DNA of 64,000 nucleotides from Methanobacteriota archaeon (GTDB lineage: Archaea; Thermoplasmatota; E2; JACPAO01; JAHWKR01), in the NCBI GenBank assembly GCA_019347805.1, contig JAHWKR010000005.1, forward strand, positions 1 to 64,000, given 5' to 3'. Each line of letters begins with the position of its first letter. The stretch's first letter is position 1. Shown piece after piece: positions 96 through 47,555 of this stretch. A program made the translations under genes and the position numbers. The notes below the pieces were generated by a model that did no database searches, had not been told where the DNA came from, and was given only the letters and a program-made list of their open reading frames with translations.

Positions 96-506
96 CTAAC
101 GGTACGACTTCTGTCTCTTGGCGCGCGCACCCCGCCCGAGGGGCTTCTTGGGGAGCTTACGGCGCGGGTCGGACACGAGGAGTGTCCGGTCGTAGGCGAG
201 GTAGAGCTGCTTGAGCTCGTCGTCGCCGGTGAAGTCGACGAGGCCCTTGGCGATGGCGGTACGGGCGGCGTCCGCCTGGCCCATCACACCGCCGCCCTCG
301 ATGACGACATCGATGTCGACGCCGTCCGCCTTCTCCCCTGCGAGGAGGAGGGGCTCCGTGATCTTGTCACGGGCGAGGTAGGGTTCATGGATCTCGACCG
401 GGTGCTTGTTGATGCGCACGCGGCCGTTGCCGGCCTTGAGCGTGACGCGGGCGACCGCGGACTTGCGCTTGCCAGACTGGTTCACGACGTGTTTCTTGGT
501 GGCCAT
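96..506 (-). CDS. rps9: 30S ribosomal protein S9 (uS9)
   Basis: Small-subunit ribosomal protein whose C-terminal tail reaches towards the P-site tRNA anticodon. The 136-residue protein has the normal archaeal length, with [13 protein letters not shown] near the N-terminus, the [19 protein letters not shown] core and the basic C-terminal ending KRQKSYR. I start at the ATG giving MATKKHVV; it lies 1 nt after the rpl13 stop, whereas the ATG 9 nt further upstream would overlap rpl13. It is the last gene seen of the conserved archaeal order L18e-L13-S9, and the run presumably continues beyond the window edge. Confidence 0.96.
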
Positions 507-1884: not shown

Positions 1885-2445
1885 TCAAGCGGCCGTCGGC
1901 CGGGCTGCCTGGGTGCGGCGTTCGGGGGAGACCGGCGTCGGGTTCCGCGGTTCGGCGAGGTCCGCCTCCAGGGCAGCCATCGGGTCCGAGCGCTTTCGCT
2001 GGGGCGCCTCCTGCTTGGGGCGCTCCTTCCAGACGACCTCGGCCTCCTCGATCTCGGCCTTGGCTTGCTCCTCCTCACGGCGGCGGCCGCGGGCGAGGAT
2101 GACGAAGGCAGCGAGGAGGATGGCGGCCGCGCCGATGGCGAAGGGCCACCAGGCGACCTCGGTCTCCATCCGGACGGCGGTGGTGTCGGCGGGGGCGGCT
2201 GTCGTGCCCTGTTCCGCCGTCCTTGTGTCCGAGAGGTAGACATAGGTGATGTCAGACTCAGGGACCGTCTGGATCTCGGCCGACGGCGCGGGGTCGGTCT
2301 CGATGAGCGAGTCGAGGGTCCCGTCGACGGTGTCGATGAGGCCCCCGATGATGCCGGCCTGGCTGGTCGGAACGAAGAGCGTCGCGATGGCCAAGGAGAG
2401 CGTCACTAGGAGGGCGACGCGGGACGTGGAGTGGTCGAGGGGCAT
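1885..2445 (-). CDS. Secreted, C-terminally membrane-anchored protein, paralog A
   Basis: A 186-residue protein of unknown function. It has an N-terminal signal segment (ALLVTLSLAIATLFVPTSQA), a short exported part beginning GIIGGLIDTVDGTLDSLIET, a Thr/Ala-rich stretch, one membrane segment starting WWPFAIGAAAILLAAFV, then a charged cytoplasmic tail rich in Arg, Glu and Pro. The start giving MPLDHSTS puts the signal segment at the N-terminus. Architecture and the GxIG..D(T)V..(T)..(S)..ET pattern match the neighbour at 2889-3611, so the two look like diverged duplicates. A palindromic site lies upstream at 2506-2541 and is shared with that neighbour. The pair is unrecognised and I infer no function. 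Confidence 0.8.
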   Translation of the reverse strand: MPLDHSTSRVALLVTLSLAIATLFVPTSQAGIIGGLIDTVDGTLDSLIETDPAPSAEIQTVPESDITYVYLSDTRTAEQGTTAAPADTTAVRMETEVAWWPFAIGAAAILLAAFVILARGRRREEEQAKAEIEEAEVVWKERPKQEAPQRKRSDPMAALEADLAEPRNPTPVSPERRTQAARPTAA

Positions 2446-2505
2446 GGAGTCGTGGGGAGTCGTGTGGGACCTCGTGGTTCTCACCAAAGTGTGATACATC
2501 AACCA

Positions 2506-2541
2506 GGACAAGCCTCATCGCTTGTCCAGGAATCTGGACAA
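2506..2541 (-). promoter_or_regulatory. Overlapping palindromes, operator candidate upstream of paralog A
   Basis: Three half-sites of GGACAA/TTGTCC sit in a row: GGACAAGC-N6-GCTTGTCC (2506-2527) overlaps TTGTCCA-N6-TGGACAA (2522-2541). Both dyads have perfect arms and 6-nt spacers. The second dyad recurs upstream of paralog B at 3656-3675. Position just upstream of a TATA-like box suggests a regulator-binding site; the regulator is unknown. Confidence 0.6.
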
Positions 2542-2682
2542 ATCGCCAGGTTGGGGAGCGTGGACACCGGTCGGCAGATAGGATGGGCACGTTGTTTGAT
2601 TGAGGGGCCGTTCCCGCGGATCGGAAGGCATTGTCATCGATCTTCGGCGTGGTGGGACCGCCGCACAACGGCTCGCAAAATC

Positions 2683-2731
2683 AAAAAAAAAAGGGACCGG
2701 ACCGGAAGCAGGGAGAAGGCTTCCGGTCCGG
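2683..2731 (-). terminator. Hairpin plus T10 intrinsic-type terminator
   Basis: On the minus strand a perfect 13-bp stem (CCGGACCGGAAGC paired with GCTTCCGGTCCGG, 9-nt loop, arms 2697-2709 and 2719-2731) is followed after four bases by ten consecutive T. This is the layout of a bacterial rho-independent terminator. It lies about 160 nt after the stop of the gene ending at 2889. Confidence 0.75.
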
Positions 2732-2842
2732 GGGATGCTGCCACCGCTTCATTCCGGGCGTGGGACCGGTCTGCGGGGGACACGACCTTGGCACCTGGGG
2801 GACCGCGGGAGAGAACGGTCCGGTCCAGGGTCTTGGTCCTTG

Positions 2843-2882
2843 CCGGGGGCCGACGGTGGTTCCTGCTGTCCGTCGGCCCCGG
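2843..2882 (-). repeat. Large inverted repeat after the paralog B stop codon
   Basis: The arms 2843-2856 and 2870-2882 pair over 13 bp with a single bulged G and a 13-nt loop. The hairpin begins 6 nt downstream of the stop codon on the minus strand. No T-run follows it; it may protect the mRNA 3' end or assist the terminator further on. Confidence 0.5.
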
Positions 2883-2888
2883 GTGTGA

Positions 2889-3611
2889 TCAGTGTATCCG
2901 TCTGGCGCGCGCGGCGCGGCGCGCCCGTTCGGTCTCTTCTTCGTCGATGTTCATGGTGCGGTAGGTGTGGGAAGACATCGGGGGGCCGGTCGTTCCGGGC
3001 TTGGTGGCCTGTCGCCCGGAGGGCGGGACGGAAGGGGTCGCGACCGTCGCCACGACGACCGGTGGCCCCCGATGAGCGTGAGCGTTGCTGTTGGCGGTCT
3101 TTGCGCTGACCGTGCGGTTCTTGTCGCCGCGCTCGGCCCCTTGGCGGGTCGCGTAGATGGCCGCGCCGAGGACGACGAGGGACGCGACGACGAGGAGGGT
3201 GGGCCACCAGGTGGCACCGACCAGATTGGGGAGCATGGTGTCGGAGACGGGGAAGGCTGTCGCGCCGCCGGTGCGGGCGCCGCTTGACGAGGTGCTCGCG
3301 GTCGAGGTACGGTCGGCGCTCGCCGTCTGCGACTCCGACTGGACCAAGTCTGCGGTGCCGATCTCATTGCCGAGCAGCGTCATGTTCAGCGAGGTGTCGC
3401 CAAGGGTCGTCTCGACGACCGTGTCGACCGTGCCGGTGACGGTCCCGGTCAGGCTGCCGATGAAGCCGTCCGCGCTCGCGGTCGGTGCGACGAGGAGCAA
3501 GAGGAGCAGGCCGGACCCGGCGAACGACCAGCGGCCGTGGCCGCGCGACGCGCGACGTGCGTCAGGGCGGTCGGGGGGCTGCGGCTTTTTTGCGTGGGAC
3601 CTGCGGGGCAT
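2889..3611 (-). CDS. Secreted, C-terminally membrane-anchored protein, paralog B
   Basis: A 240-residue protein of unknown function. A basic N-terminus precedes a hydrophobic signal segment (GSGLLLLLLVAPTASA), then an exported part starting GFIGSLTGTVTGTVDTVVET, a Ser/Thr-rich linker, a membrane segment beginning WWPTLLVVASLVVLGAAIY and a long cytoplasmic tail with a strongly basic end (RARRAARARR). The ATG at 3611 lies 26 nt after the TATA-like box at 3634-3640, so the mRNA is probably leaderless; an ATG at 3629 is less likely. The order of parts and the exported motif match paralog A at 1885-2445. The operator-like dyad at 3656-3675 also matches. The family is unrecognised. Confidence 0.8.
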   Translation of the reverse strand: MPRRSHAKKPQPPDRPDARRASRGHGRWSFAGSGLLLLLLVAPTASADGFIGSLTGTVTGTVDTVVETTLGDTSLNMTLLGNEIGTADLVQSESQTASADRTSTASTSSSGARTGGATAFPVSDTMLPNLVGATWWPTLLVVASLVVLGAAIYATRQGAERGDKNRTVSAKTANSNAHAHRGPPVVVATVATPSVPPSGRQATKPGTTGPPMSSHTYRTMNIDEEETERARRAARARRIH

Positions 3612-3633
3612 GGGCACCATCTGCGGCAAACGG

Positions 3634-3640
3634 GTATAGG
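3634..3640 (-). promoter_or_regulatory. TATA box of paralog B
   Basis: The minus strand reads CCTATAC, centred 26 nt upstream of the ATG at 3611, the spacing seen for many genes in this window. Confidence 0.5.
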
Positions 3641-3655
3641 CATGTCAAGTGTCGG

Positions 3656-3675
3656 TCGTCCAAAATCCTGGACAA
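3656..3675 (-). promoter_or_regulatory. Palindrome upstream of paralog B, operator candidate
   Basis: On the minus strand TTGTCCA-GGATTT-TGGACGA, an inverted repeat with a 6-nt spacer and one mismatch. It matches TTGTCCA-GGAATC-TGGACAA at 2522-2541 upstream of paralog A. It lies about 28 bp upstream of the TATA-like box. Confidence 0.6.
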
Positions 3676-3812: not shown

Positions 3813-4985
3813 TTACGCCTGCGGCTGCCCGGCCGACGCGTCGGCGACCTCACCTTCCGTCCCGGCGATGCGGGTGGTCTGCACCTTGCCGAACATCGCC
3901 TCCTTGAAGATGGCGAGCCGGTCGAGGCCCTGGATGTCCTCACGGAAGAGCGGCAAGAGGCGCTTCTGGACATGCGGCAGGCGGATCTCCAGGTCGCCGA
4001 TGTGGGACAGGTTCATGGCGCGACGGATCTCCGAGAAAGCGGTCGCCGTCGTGATGGCATCCACCAGGGTCGCCGGATAGCGATGCTCCTTCAGCACCTC
4101 GGCGAGCCTTGTGCGCGTCTCCTCGTCCTGCATCAAACGATGGAACTCTGCCTGGTCCGGCCCGAGCGCATCCGGCTGCACCTTGTTGATGAAGACATAG
4201 CCGATGTGGATACCGATCTCCTTCACCGCGTGCTCATAGAGGTCGATGGTCTCCTCGACCGGCAGTTTTTCCGGAAGAGCGACGATGTTGAGCGCCGTCC
4301 TGTCGGGGTCGGTGAGCATCTCCTGGATGCCCTTCGCCTCGGTGGCGAGCCGCTCGAACACCTGCTCGAGGTCCACATCCTCCGCTTCCGCCGCCGCGTC
4401 GCGCTTGTCGGCCTCGATCTCCTCTTTCTTCTGGAACATCGAGCCGATGCCGCGGCGCGCCTTGTTGAACCGCTGCCACACTTTGTAGCCGCGTAAGACC
4501 CAACGGATGAGGCTTTTTTCCGACATCAGTTCCTGGATGGCCTTCGGGGCGGAGAGGAAGGACAAGGCGTGGCCGGTGGGGGCCGTGTCGATTACGATGA
4601 TGTCATAATCGAGCTCCTTGCGGATCTCGTTCAGCCGACCGATGGCCATGAGTTCGTTGAGGCCCGGCAGATAGTTCGTGACGTAGCGGAAGAGCGGATG
4701 GTCCATGACCGCCTCGCCCTCCGCATATTGCTGCAGACGCTCGCGGATGATCTCCTCCGGGTCGAGCATCTGCGCGTGCAGGTTCTCCTGGATCTCGGTG
4801 ATGCCCTTGATCTCGACCCCGAGCGAATCCTCCAGTCTCTTCGCCGGGTCGACCGTGACAAGCAAGGTGCGTTTGCCCTGGCCCGCGAAATGGAGCGCCG
4901 CCGCAGCCGAACAAGTGGTCTTGCCGACACCGCCTTTTCCGGCGAAGATGAGGAGCTGCTTCGTGCCGAGGTCCTCGAGGGCCAT
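3813..4985 (-). CDS. ArsA/Get3 family ATPase
   Basis: A 390-residue single-domain ATPase of the ArsA/Get3 group. The deviant P-loop GKGGVGKTT is at residues 16-24 and the family motif DTAPTGH at 133-139; a helical, charged region around 190-220 may be the client- or metal-responsive lid. In archaea these proteins either deliver C-terminally anchored membrane proteins or energise arsenite export. No ArsB, ArsR or ArsC is nearby, which favours the Get3-like role, but this is inference. The start lies 29 nt after a TATA-like box, so the mRNA is probably leaderless. The next genes (fdhD and its oxidoreductase) lie upstream with their own promoter. Confidence 0.88.
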   Translation of the reverse strand: MALEDLGTKQLLIFAGKGGVGKTTCSAAAALHFAGQGKRTLLVTVDPAKRLEDSLGVEIKGITEIQENLHAQMLDPEEIIRERLQQYAEGEAVMDHPLFRYVTNYLPGLNELMAIGRLNEIRKELDYDIIVIDTAPTGHALSFLSAPKAIQELMSEKSLIRWVLRGYKVWQRFNKARRGIGSMFQKKEEIEADKRDAAAEAEDVDLEQVFERLATEAKGIQEMLTDPDRTALNIVALPEKLPVEETIDLYEHAVKEIGIHIGYVFINKVQPDALGPDQAEFHRLMQDEETRTRLAEVLKEHRYPATLVDAITTATAFSEIRRAMNLSHIGDLEIRLPHVQKRLLPLFREDIQGLDRLAIFKEAMFGKVQTTRIAGTEGEVADASAGQPQA

Positions 4986-5036: not shown

Positions 5037-5867
5037 CTAAGCCAATCGTTCGGGGTGACAATAGAGGTTGTATCCGTCCTCCCTCAGAAACCCCACCAGG
5101 GTCATCCCGAGCCGGTCAGCGAGGGAGACCGCGAGAGACGACGGGGCGCCGACCGCGGCGAGGAAGGGGATGCCGCCGCGGGCCGCTTTCTGGACGAGTT
5201 CGAAGGAGGCACGGCCGGAGACGACGGCGATGCTGTCGTTGAGTGGGAGTTCTCTTGCAAGGAGGGCGGCGCCGAGCGCCTTGTCCATGGCGTTGTGGCG
5301 GCCGACGTCCTCGGCGAGCCGGACGAGTCGGCCTTCCGGTGTGAAGAGGCCGGTGGCGTGGATGCCGCCGGTCGCCGCGAAGAGCTTCTGTTCTGTTCGC
5401 AGTCGGTCTGGCAAGGTGCGGAGGGTCGCATCGTCGAGGGTTCGTTTGGCGGGTGGGAGCGGGTCGGTCGCCACCTCGACCGCGTCGAGGGTGGCTTTGC
5501 CGCAGACGCCGCAGGATGAGGTGGTGTAGACGTTGCGCGTGAACTCCTTCGGGTCGAGCTCCAGGTCGTCACGCAGCGTCACTTGGATGACGTTGCCTTT
5601 CGCATCAGGTCGTTCCGGATCCTCGATGTGTCCGATCTGGACGATGTCGTCCCTCTTGTGGACGATGCCCTCGGTAAGAAGGAATCCTGCGGCGAGCGCC
5701 TTGTCGTCCCCCGGCGTCCGCATGGTGACCGCGAGCGGTGTCTCGAGCCAACGCACCTGCACCCGGATCTCAAGGGGTTCCTCGGCGGCGACCAGATCCT
5801 CGTCCTTTTCGAGGTGGTCCTGCTTCGGGCCGTGGCGGGTGACGGCAACGCGGGTCGTCTCGGGCAT
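5037..5867 (-). CDS. fdhD: Formate dehydrogenase accessory sulfurtransferase FdhD
   Basis: Sulfur-carrier protein that transfers sulfur to the molybdenum cofactor of formate-dehydrogenase-type enzymes. The family signature SSCGVCGK carries the two reactive cysteines (about residues 119 and 122), and LAEDVGRHNAMDK is the other conserved block. At 276 residues the length is normal. It begins 2 nt after the stop of the molybdoenzyme gene; a GTG at 5873 would overlap that stop (GTGA). The pairing with that gene says the enzyme is its client. Confidence 0.93.
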   Translation of the reverse strand: MPETTRVAVTRHGPKQDHLEKDEDLVAAEEPLEIRVQVRWLETPLAVTMRTPGDDKALAAGFLLTEGIVHKRDDIVQIGHIEDPERPDAKGNVIQVTLRDDLELDPKEFTRNVYTTSSCGVCGKATLDAVEVATDPLPPAKRTLDDATLRTLPDRLRTEQKLFAATGGIHATGLFTPEGRLVRLAEDVGRHNAMDKALGAALLARELPLNDSIAVVSGRASFELVQKAARGGIPFLAAVGAPSSLAVSLADRLGMTLVGFLREDGYNLYCHPERLA

Positions 5868-5869
5868 GG

Positions 5870-8236
5870 TCACCCCGCAAGACTCGAGGCCGCGGTCGCG
5901 CCGACCTCTTCGCTCTCGTGGTTTCGTTCGGCACCAAGCGTGTGCCCCTCCCGTTCGATGCGCACGAGTGCGTTGTAATCAGGGATCTTCGCCTCGGGGT
6001 CGAGCCGGTCCGGGTCGAGGAGCACGTTGCCCTCCGGCCAATGCACCTGCAGGTTCCCGGGAAGAATTGGTGCGCTCTGGATGCGGCAGTCGAGCGAGCC
6101 GTGCGGTGAGACGAGTCTGATCCTTTTTCCGTTCTCGATTCCGAGCCTTTCCAGGTCTTCCGGCGCCATGAGGACCGCGTCGCGCGGCGCGCCGTTCAGG
6201 GGATCGATCTCTGCCTGCACCATGCTGTTGAACTGCTTGCCCCGGCGTGTGGTCACGCGGAACAGTCGCGGGTCGGTGGTGGCTTCCGGTGGCGTGAGCG
6301 GGACGAACGTAGCTTTCTGGTCGGGGGTGGGGAAGCGTCCGCCTTCGCAGAGCCTGCGTCCGCCCCACTGGATGCTGTCGCCCTTCTTCTTGAGGTCCTG
6401 GATTCCGCCATAGGTCGGGACGACGCGGGCGATCTCGTCGCGGATGGCCTGCGCGTCCTGGAGCATGCTGTGCTTCGCTTTTTCGGGGTCGACCGCTTTT
6501 TGCAGCAGCTGGAAGATCTCCCATTCACTTTTCGCCTCGCCCACTTCGTGGCCGGGGATGTGCGGGTTGTAGTAGACGCGCCGCTCGGTCGACGTCGACG
6601 TCCCGCCGCCCGGCTGTTCGTAGCGCGTGGCAGAAGGCAAGAGCAGGACGGTTCCGCCTTCGGGCGGGTCGACGAGCATGGCGGACGATGTGACGATGTC
6701 CTGATGGACCCTCAGCTTCGGCTGTTTGAGCGCTCGTTCGACGGCTTCAGGGTCGGGGAGCGTCTCGAGGAAATTGCCGCCGACCGACCAGAGGACATCG
6801 ATCTCACCGCGGCCGCAGGCGGTGATGTAATCGGTCGCCGGGAGGCCTTGGCTTGTCGGGATGCTGAAGCCCCAGATCTCCTCTATCCGCTTTCTTGCTG
6901 TCTCGTCGTCGATCGGGCTCCCCAGTCCGACGAAGTCGGGGACGCATCCCATCTCGGCGCCACCTTGGACGCCGCTGTGGCCCCGGATCGGCATGAGCCC
7001 CGCCCCCGGCTGGCCGATCGCGCCGATGGCGAGCGCGAGGTCGCATACCGCTGCGACGTTCTGCACGCCGAAGGTGTGCTGCGTGAGCCCCATGCTCCAG
7101 ACGAAGACCGTCTTCGGGTTGTCGGTGAGGAGGTCCGCGAAGGCCTCCATCTCGCTCTTCGATGCGCCAGAGAGCCGCTCCAAATGTTCGAACGCTTGGG
7201 CCTTGATGCTCTCTTCGAACTCTTTCCAGCCGTTCGTGTGCTCTTTGATGAATCCGTGGTCGACGGTGTCCCGTTCGATGAGCACCTTTAGGGCCCCGGC
7301 GATGAAGGCGATGTCGCCCCCGGTGTGGACCTGGAAGAAGCGGTCGGCGAGCCGCGTGCCGAAGACGGCCGACTCGAACGTGGACGGGACCCAATAGCGC
7401 TCCATCCCCGGTTCCTTGTAGGGGTTCACGACCGCGACCTTGGTGCCCTGCTGCTTGGCCATGTGCAGGTATTTCGTGGTGACGGGTTGGTTGTTGGGGA
7501 CATCGGAGCCGAAGAAGACCACAAGGTCGGCATCGAACCAATCCTGATAGGAGACGGTGGAGGCGCCGACGCCGATCGTGCGCTTCATGGCGGTCGTGGA
7601 AGGGGAATGACAGATGCGCGAGGAGTTGTCGACGTTGTTCGTGCCGAGGAAGCGCGCCGTCTTCTGGGCGATGTAATAGGATTCGTTGGTGAGGCCGCGG
7701 CTCGTGATGTAGAACGCGAGCCGCTCCGGGGTCGTGTCCTGGATGTGTCGCGCTGCGATCCTCATCGCCTCGTCCCAGTCGATCCGTCGGAAGCCTTGGT
7801 CGCCGTGGTGGCGCACCATCGGATAGGGGAGCCGGCCGAGGGCGCGCAGCTCGTGGCTCTTCAGGGTCTTGAGATGTGCCACGTCGGCGAGCACCTTCGG
7901 GTCGAGCGCGTCCATCGTGTTCAGCTCCAAAAGGTTGAGCCGGACCGTGCAGAGATGGACACCTTTCATGGTGAAGTCGTACATCCCGGTCGTGCCGAGC
8001 GCGCAGCCGTCGCAGACCCCGTCGCGGAGCACCTTGAAGGCGTACTTGCCATGACGCTTGTTCTTCCACGCCACCTTGAGCATGTCGAGATAATGGTTCG
8101 GTTTCACCTGTCCGAGACCGTTCGGCATCCAGCCCGCCCACGACGACGGGCCGAGGAGGCGCTTGCGCTCCTTGGCGGGCTTGTGCGCCCGCTTCCACGC
8201 CTTGCGGGTCTCGACCGGGTTGCGGGACCTCGACAT
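5870..8236 (-). CDS. FdhA/YdeP-type molybdopterin oxidoreductase
   Basis: A 788-residue molybdopterin bis-MGD enzyme of the YdeP/FdhF-like alpha subunit group (the family described as oxidoreductase alpha (molybdopterin) subunit). It begins with a basic region, then VLRDGVCDGCALGTTGMYD with its CxxC. The molybdopterin domains contain ISSR-like ITSRGLTNESYY, NSSRICHSPS and a C-terminal MopB-binding domain. The classical CxxCxxxC FeS motif is reduced. The ATG at 8236 (or 8239) sits 28 nt downstream of a TATA-like box; longer N-terminal extensions would run antisense through the methyltransferase gene. It is coupled to fdhD. The substrate is unknown; formate is one possibility. Confidence 0.88.
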   Translation of the reverse strand: MSRSRNPVETRKAWKRAHKPAKERKRLLGPSSWAGWMPNGLGQVKPNHYLDMLKVAWKNKRHGKYAFKVLRDGVCDGCALGTTGMYDFTMKGVHLCTVRLNLLELNTMDALDPKVLADVAHLKTLKSHELRALGRLPYPMVRHHGDQGFRRIDWDEAMRIAARHIQDTTPERLAFYITSRGLTNESYYIAQKTARFLGTNNVDNSSRICHSPSTTAMKRTIGVGASTVSYQDWFDADLVVFFGSDVPNNQPVTTKYLHMAKQQGTKVAVVNPYKEPGMERYWVPSTFESAVFGTRLADRFFQVHTGGDIAFIAGALKVLIERDTVDHGFIKEHTNGWKEFEESIKAQAFEHLERLSGASKSEMEAFADLLTDNPKTVFVWSMGLTQHTFGVQNVAAVCDLALAIGAIGQPGAGLMPIRGHSGVQGGAEMGCVPDFVGLGSPIDDETARKRIEEIWGFSIPTSQGLPATDYITACGRGEIDVLWSVGGNFLETLPDPEAVERALKQPKLRVHQDIVTSSAMLVDPPEGGTVLLLPSATRYEQPGGGTSTSTERRVYYNPHIPGHEVGEAKSEWEIFQLLQKAVDPEKAKHSMLQDAQAIRDEIARVVPTYGGIQDLKKKGDSIQWGGRRLCEGGRFPTPDQKATFVPLTPPEATTDPRLFRVTTRRGKQFNSMVQAEIDPLNGAPRDAVLMAPEDLERLGIENGKRIRLVSPHGSLDCRIQSAPILPGNLQVHWPEGNVLLDPDRLDPEAKIPDYNALVRIEREGHTLGAERNHESEEVGATAASSLAG

Positions 8237-18826: not shown

Positions 18827-18879
18827 GGCCTCTCTTGGCGAGCGTCGTGGCGAATGCAGCCCTGAAGGAGTCCACCGCA

Positions 18880-46706: not shown

Positions 46707-46914
46707 GGAACCCACCAGGAGGTAGCCCTCGCCTTTGTCTAGCGCGGCATAAGGACGTTGTGGGGCCCGTGGCCGGCACCCCCGTGCGGCCGTGGGGCGA
46801 CGGCTCCCTCGGCCTGCGGGGCGAAATCCGAACGAGACCCCTCTATAGCGAAGGCGGACAAGTCTCCCACCGACTCCGTTCCCCTCAAGTGCCCTTGCGA
46901 GAGAACCCTTGCCG

Positions 46915-47196
46915 ATGGTGTCCGCGGAATACCGAGAAGAGGCGAAGAAGACACTCGAACGATTGAAATGGCACGAACGTCGGTTGCACGCTGCCGTCGT
47001 CTGGTACCTGGACGATGAACGGCGCAACACGTCGCGCGTCCTTGGGGAGGACATCCACACGCTCGATCCCGACGCCATCCTCGTCGGCTCCCGCAAGAGG
47101 CCGCTCAGGATCCGCTACGACCGCATCTACCGGATCGCCACCCCCGAAGGGGTCCTCTTCGAACGGCCACCGAGGACGGTCGAAGCGGAACGATAA
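46915..47196 (+). CDS. DUF504-like protein, copy 1
   Basis: A 93-residue protein. LERLKWHERRLHAAVVWYLD, SRVLGEDIHTLDPDAILVG and PLRIRYDRIYRIATPEGVLF resemble DUF504 (UPF0248), a small archaeal family of unknown function that may bind RNA. The ATG giving MVSAEYREE is chosen; a TTG lies 6 nt upstream. Its stop overlaps the start of the second copy (TAATG). Confidence 0.75.
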   Translation: MVSAEYREEAKKTLERLKWHERRLHAAVVWYLDDERRNTSRVLGEDIHTLDPDAILVGSRKRPLRIRYDRIYRIATPEGVLFERPPRTVEAER

Positions 47197-47555
47197 TGCG
47201 GGACGGGTCAAGCCGCCTCCGACCCTTTGAAGTCCCCCCCGTCCATCCGGACCCTGTGCCGACCGTCAAGGACGCCCTCAACAAGCTCAAGTGGCACCAC
47301 GGACGGCTCGACCACGCCGTCGTCTGGTACACCCACCGGGGCGCACCGGGCGACCTGCGGGCGGTGGAAGGCAGCGACATCTTGGAGCTCGGCTCCTCCT
47401 TCTTCCACGTCCAGGCACCCGAAGGGGCTACCGCCATCCCTTACCATCGCATCCAACGCATCGAGATCAAAGGACACCCCTATTGGGAGCGCCACCCGCG
47501 CCATCGCACCCTCGGCGACCTCGAGAAGGCGCAACAAGAAGAAGAACAGCTATAG
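47196..47555 (+). CDS. DUF504 protein, copy 2
   Basis: A 119-residue protein with clear DUF504 segments: ALNKLKWHHGRLDHAVVWYT, HRGAPGDLRAVEGSDILELG and GATAIPYHRIQRIEIKGHPY. It is more complete than copy 1, with which it aligns along its length, and overlaps it by one base. The two genes look like a tandem duplication. A Glu/Gln-rich C-terminus follows the domain. Confidence 0.83.
   Translation: MRDGSSRLRPFEVPPVHPDPVPTVKDALNKLKWHHGRLDHAVVWYTHRGAPGDLRAVEGSDILELGSSFFHVQAPEGATAIPYHRIQRIEIKGHPYWERHPRHRTLGDLEKAQQEEEQL

Follow-up and report, generated by a model that had tools for sequence, protein, structure and literature searches.

Archaeal palindromic operators are found upstream of the BRE and TATA box at activated promoters and downstream of them at repressed promoters, as reviewed for the TrmB family, with the BRE at about -33/-34 and the TATA box at about -26/-27 (PMC4158304). 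In regulons of the TrmB/TrmBL1/Tgr type and the Lrp type, the dyad occupies a fixed position at the core promoter, which for activated genes is upstream of BRE/TATA. The dyad that precedes the two genes described here, A and B, is placed in this way at B and probably at A. Its sequence, TTGTCCA-N6-TGGACAA, differs from the TACT-N3-AGTA and TATCAC-N5-GTGATA motifs of those regulons, and membership of A and B in a TrmB or Lrp regulon cannot be claimed. On the protein side, the closest described systems are the C-terminally anchored type I surface proteins with GPS-CTERM or LPXTG-like tails and the tail-anchored clients of Get3, which have a single transmembrane (TM) helix at the C terminus (PMC10248533).

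The locus and its genes

The window (the whole stretch of 64,000 nucleotides that was analysed) is an archaeal contig with a G+C content of 66% and belongs to a 2.94 Mb genome in 81 contigs. From reading the sequences, we take the genes at 96-1346 to encode the ribosomal proteins eL18, uL13, and uS9, and the gene at 18847 to be PCNA-like. On the minus strand, the order of transcription is the FdhD-like gene, ArsA, B, A, ORF X, and the ribosomal genes (Table 1). GC3 was 0.90 for A and 0.88 for B, and the G+C content by codon position was that of real genes. ORF X, for which the family search returned none, has an acidic stretch followed by a basic one in its C-terminal part and may be co-transcribed with A as a member of the same unit. 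Elsewhere in the window, a tandem pair on the plus strand (46909-47196 and 47256-47555) encodes similar small proteins (KTLERLKWHERRLHAAVVWY... and ALNKLKWHHGRLDHAVVWY...), a further local duplication.

Table 1. Genes, protein parts, and promoter elements. Positions without a prefix are those of the window; residues are those of the respective protein.
Feature	Position	Strand	Remarks
ORF X	1425-1640 or from ATG 1799	-	small, downstream of A; 71 aa (GTG 1640) or 124 aa; start uncertain
Gene A	1885-2445	-	ORF, 186 aa
Gene B	2889-3611	-	ORF, 240 aa
ArsA gene	3813-4985	-	
FdhD-like gene	5037-5873	-	
Signal peptide of A	residues 1-30		hydrophobic; signal-peptidase-like site PTSQA/G
Exported amphipathic helix of A	residues 31-50		followed by Thr-rich linker
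WWP and TM helix of A	residues ~99-117		hydropathy; followed by charged tail of ~69 residues, predicted cytoplasmic
Signal peptide of B	residues 1-47		long basic n-region; signal-peptidase-like site PTASA/DG
Exported helix of B	residues 48-70		followed by Ser/Thr/Gly-rich linker
WWP and TM helix of B	residues ~135-153		hydropathy; followed by charged tail of ~87 residues
Possible TATA-like box of A	2493-2498	-	TGTATC; weak, inferred
Extra dyad at A	2506-2527	.	GGACAAG-N8-CTTGTCC; half-site 2522-2527 in common with the main operator
Operator of A	2522-2541	.	TTGTCCA-N6-TGGACAA = TTGTCCAGGAATCTGGACAA, 0 mismatches
TATA-like box of B	3634-3639	-	CTATAC; 23-28 bases before ATG 3611, 16 bases below the operator
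Operator of B	3656-3675	.	TCGTCCAAAATCCTGGACAA, 1 mismatch; -64 to -45 from ATG 3611
PrsW-like intramembrane protease gene	L013:4378-5139 (G000:C49)		followed by the third operator; contains a masked run of N
Third operator copy	G000:C49:27187-27206		at most 1 mismatch, intergenic
M28 peptidase lipoprotein gene	L013:5247-6344 (G000:C49)		

Architecture and relatedness of proteins A and B

Both proteins consist of an N-terminal signal peptide, an exported segment, a linker, the motif WWP, one TM helix, and a charged tail in the same order. This common layout, described in the earlier note, was borne out by the open reading frames, the codon-position G+C, and the hydropathy. The 19-residue hydropathy exceeded 1.6 only in the signal peptide and the TM helix of each protein, so that the topology check gave one signal peptide and one TM helix for both. 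Furthermore, the predicted signal peptidase I sites, S-Q-A in A and A-S-A in B, are at equivalent places, and positive residues are found on the inner side of the TM helix (RGRRR in A; R..AER..K in B). With these features, A and B are predicted to be Sec-exported type I single-pass membrane proteins. They share the signal peptide, the Thr/Ser-rich linker, and the TM helix with Arg residues with the anchored surface proteins mentioned above, but differ from them in the tail of about 70-90 residues beyond the TM helix and in an exported part made up of one short helix and the linker; the anchor-domain scores were all under the cut-off (13.5 vs 28 bits for GPS-CTERM).

Immediately after the signal peptide, a block of 20 residues (GIIGGLIDTVDGTLDSLIET in A and GFIGSLTGTVTGTVDTVVET in B) is identical at 11 positions. 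This block is amphipathic as a helix, with p values of the moment of about 0.017 and 0.020 for the two proteins, and it was helical in the AlphaFold models, in which the linker was disordered, as was the greater part of the tail; both models are of low confidence (pLDDT of 60 for the single-sequence model of A, with helices at 5-23, 27-49, and 100-141, and 57 for that of B).

Whether A and B are homologous was judged by block shuffles, which retain the local composition and are a fairer test than a plain genome search. The local alignment of the whole proteins had a score of 100, which at most 0.05% of the shuffles reached. When the exported segments were aligned alone, without the signal peptide and the TM helix, no more than 1 in 10,000 shuffles attained the score. 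A and B are thus likely paralogs, short of proof. In the other reading, which we consider unlikely, they arose separately as small exported membrane proteins with a biased composition and came by chance to resemble each other in layout and regulator. That composition, an identity of only 29% over a gapped alignment, and an E value of 0.16 in the plain genome search are in its favour, and PWW before a TM helix is also present in exported proteins of the phylum that are unrelated to A and B. Within the 326 kb of the same genome that were read (overlaps not removed), WW ahead of a TM-like stretch is rare, with only four instances, those of A and B among them; this speaks for paralogy, but in view of the unrelated proteins it is weak by itself. 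However, chance resemblance hardly accounts for the rarity with which the composition-preserving shuffles reached the observed score, or for a block that lies at the same place past the signal peptide and agrees at 17 of its 20 second codon positions.

We also searched for relatives of the two proteins. None were found in the 58 nearest genomes, in viral contigs, or in the PDB, and comparison with Pfam, NCBIfam, and PHROGs gave nothing near a family cut-off. The profile search of archaeal genomes proposed in the earlier note, carried out with a two-row profile on 390 genomes of the phylum, likewise yielded no relatives. Weak genome matches were rejected as TM segments, parts of unrelated proteins, or interrupted frames. 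A and B are orphan proteins of no known family, in agreement with the earlier note, which had recognised none.

The operator and its promoters

The dyads that the earlier note had placed upstream of A and B, one of them with one mismatch, were found again, as was the extra overlapping dyad at A. Here the half-sites TTGTCC, GGACAA, and TTGTCC follow in series, and the first and the last are separated by 30 bp. Across the 2.94 Mb genome, the motif was observed three times with one mismatch or none, against 0.23 expected under an order-2 Markov model (Poisson P 0.0018), and a perfect site was expected 0.005 times; the backward pattern, used as the control, gave no site at this threshold. Because the motif had been read from the promoters of A and B, we also resampled promoter pairs with a Markov model, and none of 4000 pairs shared a 7-bp-arm dyad as similar. 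All three sites are intergenic and upstream of genes for exported proteins; the three two-mismatch sites all fall within coding sequence. With up to two mismatches, 6 sites were observed vs 5.3 expected, and with up to three, 102 vs 73; with these counts at or near the background, the regulon would be small. A simple gene finder assigned 38 of 53 classified sites to genes and 15, including the three good ones, to the regions outside. In the 58 related genomes no enrichment was observed (17 matches vs 28 for the control), and the operator is accordingly taken as a feature of this lineage. Among the matches listed in a literature search with the two half-sites, none concerned archaeal operators.

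Other spacings, TTGTCC-N4..14-GGACAA, gave three more sites that were not regarded as the same operator; two fall within genes, and the remaining one precedes a threonine synthase gene. The last, TTGTCC-N6-GGACAA at L034:1501-1518 (G000:C16), is about 100 bp upstream of that gene and has a spacing unlike that of the A and B operators.

At B, the position of the TATA-like box predicts a leaderless start at ATG 3611. About 10 bases separate the end of the operator from the position of the BRE below it, which places the operator just upstream of the expected BRE/TATA, and from this location we infer that the putative regulator most likely activates B. The same arrangement is probable at A and ambiguous at the gene behind the third site. 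Upstream of A, an imperfect dyad, TATCAC-N6-GTGAGA (2479-2496), overlaps the likely core promoter and resembles the TrmBL1/Tgr motif TATCAC-N5-GTGATA with a different spacing.

The third site is centred 49 bp before the predicted GTG start of an M28 peptidase gene (PF04389), whose product is exported with a lipoprotein-type signal, and the site follows a PrsW-like protease gene (PF13367) at a distance of 55 bp. The M28 gene has no clear TATA box; a GTATCAC is found upstream of the operator, an arrangement that would fit a repressor, and the putative regulator could repress this gene.

The shared dyad might be a mere relic, with the promoters duplicated along with A and B and the palindrome inherited without present function. 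The upstream regions, operator included, do show a weak overall similarity (score 35, a value attained in 1.6% of the shuffles). Nevertheless, the palindrome has been kept at 0-1 mismatch though the proteins and the flanks have diverged far, and a third near-perfect site precedes an unrelated gene, which makes a relic quite improbable. The claim of a regulated paralogous pair is thus backed by the sequence statistics and by the third intergenic copy of the operator.

A proposed small envelope regulon

The explanation that we favour, with somewhat better than even confidence, combines an old tandem duplication of A and B with a small envelope regulon that is controlled through the operator and includes the M28 peptidase. 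A and B would have arisen as an old tandem duplicate of a small Sec-exported type I membrane protein. In both, a short amphipathic helix and a flexible Thr/Ser-rich linker would lie outside, and a single TM helix would lead to the charged tail on the inside. The two genes would have separate promoters, each with a 20-bp operator that is most likely bound by a putative dimeric helix-turn-helix regulator. At B, this regulator would act as an activator; at A, the extra overlapping dyad may leave room for another dimer, so that control could be stronger or cooperative. A and B are probably switched together by this one putative regulator, so that its targets would be an activator-controlled pair and, probably, one exported peptidase gene. 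Since the M28 peptidase lipoprotein would be under the same regulator, the regulon seems to be a small response concerned with the cell envelope or with nutrients, with A and B acting at the membrane, where they probably associate through the helix outside and dock through the tail inside. Against this explanation stand the lack of operator enrichment in the 58 relatives, the absence of A and B orthologues in which conservation of the dyad would show, the weak TATA box of A, the promoter of the M28 gene with its possible repressor layout, and the low-confidence AlphaFold models. Highly speculative is a wider version, a new archaeal envelope-signalling module in which the orphan A/B family, the new operator, the M28 peptidase, and possibly the PrsW-like protease belong together and A and B are processed or sensed at the membrane.

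The earlier note had also connected A and B with delivery by the adjoining ArsA gene, which is a genuine member of the GET3/ArsA/TRC40 ATPase family (TIGR00345, E 1.8e-48). Although that gene was said to follow the pair, its coordinates are merely higher, and in transcription it is upstream of B. Its product has no CXXC motif, which is weak evidence because some true Get3 proteins also lack it (PMC10248533). The scan of genome contigs with ArsA gave an irrelevant bacterial locus as the sole match, and its orthologues in three same-order genomes, each from another family and hence a thin comparison, have no A/B-like neighbour. Adjacency to B thus counts for little against the signal peptides of A and B, a TM helix far from the C terminus, and a separate ArsA gene unlinked to A/B-like genes in relatives, and delivery of the two as tail-anchored proteins is scarcely credible.

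Taken together, the sequence data suggest that the orphan envelope proteins belong to a real regulon that is small and specific to this lineage. It is seen in one genome only and is ordinary in kind. A and B would function at the membrane surface and would be switched on by some condition of the envelope or of nutrient supply. Beyond a few model species, little is known about archaeal operators and their target genes; here, a three-site operator, two orphan membrane proteins, and one secreted peptidase would make up a regulon that is small and open to testing, with the dyad as a ready bait for the putative regulator.
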